DNA of 64,000 nucleotides from Loktanella sp. IMCC34160 (GTDB taxonomy: Bacteria > Pseudomonadota > Alphaproteobacteria > Rhodobacterales > Rhodobacteraceae). Under the pieces are notes generated by a model. It saw only the letters and a list, made by a program, of their open reading frames with translations. It searched no databases and was not told where the DNA came from. Positions 23,529-25,817 of this stretch are shown piece after piece (position 1 is the first letter of the stretch; each line of letters begins with the position of its first letter). The position numbers were made by a program, and so were the translations under genes. The stretch covers positions 124,001 to 188,000 of the forward strand of contig NZ_SELP01000004.1 of the NCBI RefSeq assembly GCF_004145845.1, read 5' to 3'.

Positions 23529-23651
23529 CATCCCAAGGTGGATCGACGGAGTGCTGGGTCGGGTGCGCAGGCGTGACCCACCGGACACAGTCCGGAATGG
23601 TCTGATTTTGCCAAGATTTCCCCCTAGTCTCGCCATTCGCTTCGGCTTATG

Positions 23652-23667
23652 TGTTCACGCGTGAACA
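23652..23667. promoter_or_regulatory. Perfect 16-bp palindrome before the winged-helix/ATP-sulfurylase gene
   Basis: TGTTCACGCGTGAACA is a fully symmetric 16-mer ending 15 bases before the ATG at 23683. Its flanks (TATG to the left, TATT to the right) are AT-rich, so it probably overlaps or adjoins the promoter. Given the DNA-binding domain encoded at the start of the gene, it is a natural candidate for an autoregulatory operator; this link is inferred. Confidence 0.6.
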
Positions 23668-23682
23668 TATTGCGAGTCCCCG

Positions 23683-25758
23683 ATGCCCACCTCCGTGGCC
23701 AGACATAACCCTGCCGAGGAAGACCTGATCTTCCGGCTCTTGCGCCAGCTGGACGCTGCGCCAGGGGCGTCGCAGCGTGCGACGGCGGCGGCGTTGGATA
23801 TCTCGCTTGGGCGGCTCAATGCGTTGTTGCGTGGCGCGGCAGAGGCCGGGTTGATCACCATCAACGCCCGGCCTGGCCCCGATAAACGCCAACGGTTCGC
23901 CTATACCATCACCACCCGTGGCGCCGCTGAAAAGACGCGGCTGCGCGACCAATTCCTTGCCCGCAAATTCGCCGAATACGATGCCCTGCACGCAGAGCTG
24001 ACCGGTTCCAGCAGCGGCCTCACTCCCATCAAACACAGGACCCATCCGATGCAGAATAACCTTGCCCCCATCCCAGAGCTCTACGTCTCTTACGAGAGTG
24101 CACAGAAGCTCAAGGTCGAAGCCGCTGATCTGACCAGCCACGACCTGACCCCGCGCCAGATCTGCGATCTGGAACTGCTGATGAACGGGGGCTTCAACCC
24201 GCTCAAGGGCTTCCTGTCCGAGGAAGATTACAATGGCGTTGTGGACAACATGCGCCTTGCCGATGGCACCCTGTGGCCGATGCCGATCACGCTGGACGTG
24301 TCCGAAGCTTTTGCCGACAGCATCGAATTGGGTCAGGACATCGCGCTGCGCGATCAGGAAGGCGTGATCCTTGCCACCATGACCGTGACCGACCGCTGGA
24401 CCCCGAACAAGTCGCATGAGGCGGAAAAGGTGTTCGGCGCCGACGATCTGGCGCACCCGGCGGTGAATTACCTGCATCACACGGCCGGCAAGGTCTATCT
24501 GGGCGGGCCGATCACCGGCATCCAGCAGCCCGTGCACTATGATTTCCGGGGCCGTCGCGACACGCCGAACGAACTGCGCGCCTATTTCCGCAAGCTGGGC
24601 TGGCGCCGCGTTGTGGCCTTCCAGACCCGCAACCCGCTGCACCGCGCGCACCAGGAACTGACCTTCCGGGCCGCGAAAGAGGCACAGGCCAACCTGCTGA
24701 TCCACCCGGTGGTTGGCATGACCAAACCGGGCGACGTGGACCACTTCACCCGCGTCCGCTGCTACGAGGCAGTTCTGGACAAATACCCCCAGTCCACCAC
24801 CACCATGTCGCTGCTGAACCTTGCCATGCGCATGGCTGGCCCGCGCGAAGCGGTCTGGCACGGGATCATCCGCCGCAACCACGGCTGCACCCATATGATC
24901 GTCGGCCGTGACCACGCGGGCCCGGGCAAGAACAGCGCGGGCGAGGATTTCTACGGCCCCTATGACGCGCAGGACCTGTTCCGCGAGCACCAGTCCGAGA
25001 TCGGCATCGAAATGGTCGACTTCAAGCACATGGTCTATGTGCAGGAACGCGCCCAATACGAACCCAACGACGAGATCGAGAATCGGGATAACGTCACCAT
25101 CCTCAACATCTCGGGCACGGAATTGCGCCGCCGCCTGCGCGAAGGGCTGGAGATTCCGGAATGGTTCTCGTTCCCCGAGGTGGTGAAGGAACTGCGCCGC
25201 ACCTCTCCGCCCCGGTCCAAGCAGGGCTTTACCGTCTTCTTCACCGGCTTCTCGGGGTCGGGCAAATCCACCATCGCCAACGCGCTGATGGTCAAGCTGA
25301 TGGAGATGGGCGGCCGCCCGGTGACCCTTCTGGACGGGGATATCGTGCGGAAGAACCTGTCGTCGGAACTTGGGTTCTCGAAGGAACACCGCGACCTGAA
25401 CATTCGCCGCATCGGCTATGTCGCGTCCGAGATCACCAAGAACGGCGGGATCGCCATCTGCGCCCCGATCGCGCCCTATACCGCAACCCGCCGCGCGGTC
25501 CGGGAAGAGATCGAACAGTATGGTGCCTTTGTCGAAGTTCACGTGGCCACCAGCATCGAAGAGTGCGAACGGCGTGACCGCAAGGGGCTCTACAAGCTGG
25601 CCCGCGAAGGCAAGATCAAGGAATTCACCGGGATTTCCGACCCCTACGAAGAGCCGGCGAACCCGGAACTGCGGGTCGAAACCGAAAATGTGGACGTCGA
25701 CAACTGCGCCCACCAGGTGATCTTGAAGTTGGAAAGCATGGGGCTGATCGCGGGCTGA
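23683..25758 (+). CDS. Winged-helix domain fused to sulfate adenylyltransferase/adenylylsulfate kinase
   Basis: 691 residues in one uninterrupted frame. Residues about 12-105 resemble the EPS-associated MarR-like regulators (TIGR04176): DLIFRLLRQLDAAPGASQRA, ISLGRLNALLRGAAEAGLI, YTITTRGAAEKTRLRDQFLA and KFAEYDALHAEL. After a linker, Met123 (24049) begins a complete 569-residue ATP sulfurylase (about 123-510; QTRNPLHRAH at 314, GRDHAGPG at 408) plus APS kinase (P-loop GFSGSGKST at 522-530). The enzyme makes PAPS from sulfate and two ATP. Stand-alone homologues start like Met123, and AGGA lies eight bases before that ATG, so a shorter enzyme could also be made by internal initiation. Confidence 0.9.
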   Translation: MPTSVARHNPAEEDLIFRLLRQLDAAPGASQRATAAALDISLGRLNALLRGAAEAGLITINARPGPDKRQRFAYTITTRGAAEKTRLRDQFLARKFAEYDALHAELTGSSSGLTPIKHRTHPMQNNLAPIPELYVSYESAQKLKVEAADLTSHDLTPRQICDLELLMNGGFNPLKGFLSEEDYNGVVDNMRLADGTLWPMPITLDVSEAFADSIELGQDIALRDQEGVILATMTVTDRWTPNKSHEAEKVFGADDLAHPAVNYLHHTAGKVYLGGPITGIQQPVHYDFRGRRDTPNELRAYFRKLGWRRVVAFQTRNPLHRAHQELTFRAAKEAQANLLIHPVVGMTKPGDVDHFTRVRCYEAVLDKYPQSTTTMSLLNLAMRMAGPREAVWHGIIRRNHGCTHMIVGRDHAGPGKNSAGEDFYGPYDAQDLFREHQSEIGIEMVDFKHMVYVQERAQYEPNDEIENRDNVTILNISGTELRRRLREGLEIPEWFSFPEVVKELRRTSPPRSKQGFTVFFTGFSGSGKSTIANALMVKLMEMGGRPVTLLDGDIVRKNLSSELGFSKEHRDLNIRRIGYVASEITKNGGIAICAPIAPYTATRRAVREEIEQYGAFVEVHVATSIEECERRDRKGLYKLAREGKIKEFTGISDPYEEPANPELRVETENVDVDNCAHQVILKLESMGLIAG

Positions 25759-25785: not shown

Positions 25786-25817
25786 GGGCGCCGCACGCTG
25801 TGTGGCGCCCTTTTTTT
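25786..25817 (+). terminator. Intrinsic terminator after the ATP-sulfurylase fusion gene
   Basis: GGGCGCCGCAC (25786-25796) pairs with GTGTGGCGCCC (25800-25810), one wobble, followed by seven T (25811-25817). A strong rho-independent terminator. Confidence 0.95.

Follow-up and report, generated by a model that had tools for sequence, protein, structure and literature searches.

We describe here a gene that probably encodes a self-regulating sulfate-activating enzyme. In the window, by which we mean the whole 64,000-nucleotide stretch of Loktanella sp. IMCC34160 DNA that was analysed, one open reading frame joins a MarR-type winged-helix domain to a complete ATP sulfurylase/APS kinase (sat/cysC); the long form is predicted to repress its own promoter, and an internal start to yield the enzyme free of its regulator. 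Our evidence comes from comparison of this locus with its fused and unfused relatives, together with structure prediction. Coordinates of the features discussed are collected in Table 1.

Table 1. Features of the fused sat/cysC locus, in window coordinates
Feature	Position	Strand	Basis or remark
Putative -10 element TTATGT	23647..23652	+	directly 5' of the operator, one base shared; family consensus CRATGY
Putative operator, perfect 16-bp palindrome TGTTCACGCGTGAACA	23652..23667	.	window sequence and comparison; family consensus YGTTCA-N4-TGAACA
Long form, winged helix + ATP sulfurylase + APS kinase, 691 aa	23683..25758	+	open reading frame, domain profiles
MarR-type winged-helix domain, residues 11-107	23713..24003	+	TIGR04176, AlphaFold2, Foldseek
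Linker, residues 108-122, probably flexible	24004..24048	+	gap-free alignment of 37 loci; low pLDDT at 116-123
Putative internal Shine-Dalgarno AGGA (Arg codon AGG and next A)	24037..24040	+	conserved codon
Predicted short form from Met123, enzyme without DNA-binding domain, 569 aa	24049..25758	+	conserved internal start
PUA-like domain of ATP sulfurylase, residues 130-281	24070..24525	+	PF14306, 170 bits
ATP sulfurylase catalytic domain, residues 292-506	24556..25200	+	PF01747, 302 bits
APS kinase domain, residues 514-665	25222..25677	+	PF01583, 203 bits
Intrinsic terminator-like hairpin and T run, 3' of the gene	25786..25817	+	1 found against a shuffle mean of 2.1; weak alone

The fused reading frame

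The frame runs uninterrupted from an ATG at 23683 to a TGA at 25756-25758. A preliminary description of this DNA had placed a winged helix, a linker and a complete ATP sulfurylase/APS kinase in one stop-free frame, with a perfect 16-bp palindrome 15 bases ahead of the first ATG, and we found both the frame and the palindrome as described. Residues 12-107 matched the TIGR04176 MarR_EPS model with 77 bits when the N-terminal piece was searched by itself and with 72.4 bits in the whole protein, each below the curated cut-off of 88. Residues 121-690 matched NF004040 (bifunctional sulfate adenylyltransferase/adenylylsulfate kinase) with 1052 bits, exceeding the curated cut-off of 669 and covering nearly the whole model (positions 4-571 of 572). 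The motifs QTRNPxHRxH, GRDHAG, GxSGSGKS (P-loop) and DGD, which we take to be the catalytic motifs of the ATP sulfurylase and APS kinase domains, were all invariant in a 42-row alignment, and both active sites of the enzyme look intact. Elsewhere, a second APS-kinase-like stretch (G002:C40:23004-23564), 85% identical to the C-terminal domain, was observed in a frame of 254 residues.

An AlphaFold2 model of the N-terminal domain (pLDDT 88) shows a winged helix and, C-terminal to it, a helix of 30 residues (78-107) that probably serves dimerisation, and Foldseek searches with this model returned MarR proteins as the closest structures (E from 4e-5). The full-length model reached a pTM of 0.58, with low confidence in the linker (low pLDDT at residues 116-123); so weak a model, with such a linker, lends no weight to the idea that domain and enzyme are tightly coupled by allostery.

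Distribution of the fusion and selection on the N-terminal domain

The joined protein was sought in other Rhodobacterales, and 89 of the 394 family genomes proved to have the N-terminal domain as part of a long frame. Each of these 89 reached 113 bits or more, and no match ranked below them exceeded 81. The frames that carry these 89 domains span about 600-1060 residues, with one exception of 267 residues that is cut by the end of its contig; apart from that one, none of the 89 domains is encoded by itself in a short frame. Domain and enzyme were read directly as one frame at 37 of these loci, the window's own included, and in a set of 30 sat loci drawn from 61 genomes, 8, again counting our own, were fused. 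Among 385 genomes of the class no fusion was found outside the family, frames of more than 343 residues occurring only in G000 and G233, both of the same family.

A scan of named genomes yielded 303 relatives, and we used the best 80, which, being ranked by similarity to the query, are biased to close kin; the 37 directly read loci are the more diverse set. The 80 include Leisingera, Shimia, Phaeobacter, Aliiroseovarius, Roseovarius, Sulfitobacter and other genera. All 80 were fused in frame, with N-terminal domains 71-84% identical to that of the window and aligned without gaps; one locus (L121) is truncated by its contig end, 123 residues inside the enzyme. The record of another (L072) is titled Nocardioides marinus, its locus is of roseobacter type, and it is probably mislabelled or contaminated.

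Since all of these best 80 of 303 loci were free of stops through the N-terminal domain and the linker, the fusion is not an artefact: sequencing error or chance readthrough is ruled out, and an indel or stop between residues 106 and 122, which the preliminary description had raised, was found not to be a general cause. In the more diverse set, the 37 N-terminal domains with their linkers (112 codons ahead of codon 123) aligned over 112 columns with zero gaps, the linker being of identical length throughout. The median dN/dS of the N-terminal domain was 0.11 and its maximum 0.29 (386 pairs from 79 loci), and the median for the enzyme part was 0.06. By these comparisons it is well supported that the N-terminal domain evolves under purifying selection and that the fusion is real and selected.

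The putative operator and promoter region

The palindrome TGTTCACGCGTGAACA is single in the window, where 0.26 matches at up to 3 mismatches would be expected, and the search of the genome that had been proposed for it returned one exact copy in 3.77 Mb. The TGA within its right half doubles as an in-frame stop immediately 5' of the long frame. We sought the core pattern GTTCA-N4-TGAAC in the 900 bases 5' of codon 123 of fused genes and in the 600 bases 5' of unfused ones, and observed it at 37 of 37 distinct fused loci (the window's included) against 0 of 22 unfused loci, of which 21 are of the window's family and 1 of another. In the best 80 of the 303 relatives it was present at 79 loci, beginning 393-415 bases before codon 123. 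The exception, L140 from Sulfitobacter undariae, carries a related site, TGTTCTTGCATGAACA, in the same region with one left-arm base altered. The identity of the arms is fixed by the search pattern, and the evidence lies in the constant position of the site in nearly every fused gene while its middle four bases vary.

Stand-alone relatives of the domain tie the pattern to the protein. We examined 18 MarR_EPS-like genes from 17 genomes, mostly the top of the lower-scoring matches in the 394-genome search. The exact pattern was present within about 300 bases 5' of 11 of them and a near variant, judged by eye, was present ahead of 5 more; no such operator was found upstream of the other 2, both from G012. 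Because the same arms lie upstream of these relatives, GTTCA-N4-TGAAC is very probably the fused domain's own operator. The outermost right base was G in the ten readable stand-alone sites, and 75 of the 79 sites at named fused loci have A there; the two kinds of operator may thus be partly insulated from each other. Ten chosen proteins encoded downstream of the stand-alone genes comprised two UDP-sugar dehydrogenases, two epimerase-type proteins, three ABC transporters, one polysaccharide-synthesis protein, one FdtA-like protein and one nitroreductase. In these same regions we observed the leader 8-mer GCGG[T/C]AGC, which we take to resemble the ops element of RfaH-controlled polysaccharide operons, at most 300 bases 5' of 17 of the 18 stand-alone genes (L148, L150-L164, L166); among 115 fused loci, searched over a longer and mostly coding stretch, 24 had it too.

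A wider regulon received no support. In the window's own genome the core pattern occurs twice, once at the fused gene and once within a frame that stays open for 988 residues or more. Sites of the form YGTTCANNNNTGAACR numbered 96 in 60 of the 89 fusion genomes, with the sat sites included, and 12 in 14 genomes without the fusion, three of which (G014, G017 and G026) are without a full sat/cysC match. Among the places listed, the only exact-pattern site of one fusion genome (G105) lies away from sat. Fusion genomes thus show no excess of further operator sites, which points to autorepression of a single gene.

When 116 fused loci (100 distinct sequences) were aligned on the operator, they shared CTTTGC at -29, CATGnRATGC ending at -1 and CACTTTGAGTC to the 3' side, and positions -6 to -1 ahead of the operator formed a conserved block. 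This spacing is promoter-like and would put the operator where the -10 element and the transcription start are expected. The window's own -35 region, CTAGTC, is unlike the CTTTGC of the family, and a plain sigma-70 scan found no promoter at the window's operator region, so that the -10 role in Table 1 is assigned from conservation. A second related site was seen 26-33 bases 5' of the operator in four fused loci (L034, L044, L059 and L130). Also, the conservation of CACTTTGAGTC, which lies at +15 to +26 when counted from the operator's first G, exceeds the apparent need of a weak Shine-Dalgarno sequence.

The predicted internal start

The preliminary description had suggested a second start at Met123 with an AGGA site. 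In the window AGGA lies eight bases ahead of Met123, and comparison supports the suggestion well. The Arg codon twelve bases 5' of codon 123 was AGG in all of the best 80 of 303 relatives and at all 37 other loci, and the base after it was A at all 117 fused loci; elsewhere in those 80 genes, AGG accounts for 25 of 4056 Arg codons (0.6%). Codon 123 itself was ATG in 72, GTG in 7 and TTG in 1 of the best 80, and ATG in 34, GTG in 2 and TTG in 1 of the 37 other fused loci, all of these loci being related by descent and hence not independent. A rare codon so invariably held, where the amino acid alone does not require AGG, argues strongly for a ribosome-binding site, and the comparison shows that the internal start is itself under selection. 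Predicted pairing with the 16S tail averaged -4.2 kcal/mol at the internal start and -2.0 at the long start, and was stronger at the internal one in 113 of 115 loci; the long starts were picked by rule, and from the 117 loci L140 (no exact operator) and L125 (no rule start) were omitted. Since its own Shine-Dalgarno sequence is weak, the level of the long form is uncertain.

Two unfused plasmid copies have annotated starts that align with codon 122 or 123, and complete unfused orthologues have 565-570 residues against 569 for the predicted short form. We infer that one gene probably makes both a repressor-enzyme and a regulator-free enzyme.

Evolutionary history and genome setting

The fused N-terminal domains (38 loci) formed one clade apart from the stand-alone ones (100/100, from few columns and with the bootstrap not settled). 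A tree of the enzyme part with 80 rows, which used 20 of the 79 named rows that remained after L034 and L121 were dropped as too short, required 11 changes between fused and unfused states against a shuffled mean of 19.6, with 36 of 77 forks open. Because trxB and lrp lie near sat at 17 of 20 unfused loci, we read this pattern as a single acquisition followed by recurrent loss at the same locus, which would be the simplest history, with transfer as an alternative. In this history the promoter, operator and winged-helix frame would have been inserted once ahead of sat, whose own start would have been kept, and several later losses of the domain would have been eased by that internal start. The domain is missing from the corresponding locus in many close relatives and so is dispensable. 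A search for remnants of the domain 5' of the unfused genes gave nothing convincing (best E 0.001 over 33 residues), and an apparent trace of the linker was seen by eye at one unfused locus, L013. Possibly, the fusion arose a second time, independently, in G319, where a divergent sat fusion (L147, at about 2000-2500) has a winged helix of 42% identity (46 bits), a longer and different linker, two tandem operators and a very long branch (1.95); no close sister of it was found among the matches listed from the 394 genomes.

The Loktanella genome has one sat/cysC match. Its one PF01507 protein is CysH, with cysteine pairs that we assume to mark the iron-sulfur type; CysD being presumably a member of PF01507 as well, this sole match leaves no CysD. 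PAPS probably has users there, since four distinct sulfotransferase-like places exceeded the cut-offs of two Pfam families.

The link between PAPS supply and polysaccharide sulfation that the preliminary description had drawn is an indirect one. In its favour, stand-alone relatives with the same arms precede polysaccharide genes, and unfused sat/cysC copies adjoin such genes on two plasmids: pRLO149_63 of Roseobacter litoralis (L208), beside rhamnose and glycosyltransferase genes, and a plasmid of Sulfitobacter pontiacus (L209), next to a polysaccharide cluster that includes a sulfotransferase. Against it, the fused gene has lrp and trxB upstream rather than polysaccharide genes (within 8 kb at 78 of the best 80 of 303 loci, where part of the other neighbours were annotated), and the only other operator-like site in the genome is the one inside a long open frame.

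Proposed mechanism and alternatives

In the mechanism that we favour, the winged helix of the long form would bind GTTCA-N4-TGAAC directly, over the expected -10 element and transcription start, and so would repress its own promoter. The second and stronger ribosome-binding site in the same frame would give the 569-residue enzyme without the DNA-binding domain, probably as the main product, and the two forms may assemble into mixed oligomers. Since no other ATP sulfurylase was found in the genome, the autoregulatory loop would hold the dose of this one steady. That the enzyme represses its own gene had been suggested beforehand; the part of this suggestion that makes the palindrome the domain's operator is borne out by comparison, and repression as opposed to activation, which is consistent with our observations, is deduced from the position of the operator alone. 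Sensing of sulfate, APS or PAPS, suggested there as well, may occur and agrees with what we observed.

How such repression would be set can be read in two ways, each of which we hold tentatively. The protein may be a ligand-gated trigger enzyme, in which APS or PAPS in the enzyme part would shift the winged-helix pair, so that repression would track the level of product; in BirA, bio-5'-AMP alters repression. Gating is favoured by the persistence of enzyme and regulator as one chain (80 of the best 80 of 303) though the internal start would permit an operon, by the constant length of the linker in 37 sequences and by the apparent integrity of both active sites. It is disfavoured by the low-confidence linker and the weak full-length model, and by the long, probably dimerising helix of the domain itself, with which the domain could act alone as its stand-alone relatives presumably do. 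Alternatively, and with the same reserve, control may be free of any ligand: the long form would gauge its own amount, and the short form would be the working enzyme. A linker low in model confidence and perhaps flexible, a self-contained DNA-binding domain, fusion genomes without an excess of other operators and a strong internal start all agree with such dose control, which nevertheless leaves unexplained why domain and enzyme persist in one chain.

A more elaborate scheme, which we think unlikely, makes the gene a two-form sensor. The long form would be an APS/PAPS-gated repressor with which the short form would compete in mixed oligomers, so that product and amount of enzyme together would set sulfate activation, and the domain and its operator would derive from a regulator of polysaccharide operons. 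Given such an origin, PAPS supply and polysaccharide synthesis may share an operator code where both coexist.

It is quite improbable that the fused domain activates its promoter instead of repressing it: the operator begins within or right after the putative -10 element, and an operator that overlaps or abuts the -10 occupies the typical position for repression. Hardly credible, too, is that a different regulator, for instance a MarR_EPS protein encoded alone, binds the palindrome, with the fused domain a passenger or acting elsewhere; stand-alone family genes do have the same operator arms, yet this genome has the operator and shows one match to the domain (E <= 0.001), the fused copy, the operator tracks the fusion (37 of 37 against 0 of 22), and the N-terminal domain is under purifying selection. 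Least probable of all is that only the 569-residue enzyme is made and the upstream frame is a leader or relic, as a weak first start beside a strong and conserved internal one would allow, against which stand the dN/dS of about 0.11 in the N-terminal domain, the gap-free in-frame linker at 37 loci and the retention of the operator together with the domain.

Relation to known systems

The enzyme part is familiar. Residues 121-690 match NF004040 / PRK05537 end to end, as they do the solved relative 2gks and the fungal ATP sulfurylase 1i2d, but the NF004040 model is limited to those residues; the best stretch reached residues 1-129 in 0 of 36 solved-structure matches. The N-terminal domain resembles TIGR04176 MarR_EPS over about 96 aligned residues, in its MarR-type fold and in the operator arms that it shares with 11 of 18 stand-alone genes. 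It differs in scoring below the cut-off, in forming its own clade, in being joined to an enzyme, in a locus that is not beside polysaccharide genes and in an outermost operator base that is mostly A, not G.

The trigger enzymes PutA, NadR and BirA each combine a metabolic enzyme with a transcription-regulating DNA-binding domain in one protein (PMC8249747). The sat/cysC fusion is like them in having enzyme and DNA-binding domain in one chain, and like PutA in that it appears to have a single target; it is unlike them in its enzyme and pathway, sulfate activation, in its MarR-type domain and in the conserved internal start for a regulator-free form. Relative to the trigger enzymes, then, the pathway and the conserved second start would be new. 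In the accessible text of the open-licence literature we found no published account of a sulfate-activating trigger enzyme or of a winged helix-sat/cysC fusion, and a single brief reference to the EPS-associated MarR family.

The gene offers a compact and testable case of an enzyme that would regulate its own promoter and be made, from one message, in a regulator-free form as well, and from the operator code GTTCA-N4-TGAAC it should be possible to predict which genes the EPS-associated MarR proteins target. Cysteine synthesis and PAPS-dependent sulfation both draw on activated sulfate. Most of the bacteria in which the fusion is common are marine, and seawater is rich in sulfate; with sulfate so abundant, control by product or by dose makes sense. 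In many marine bacteria of the roseobacter type, one gene thus seems to encode the enzyme together with the control over how much of it is made.
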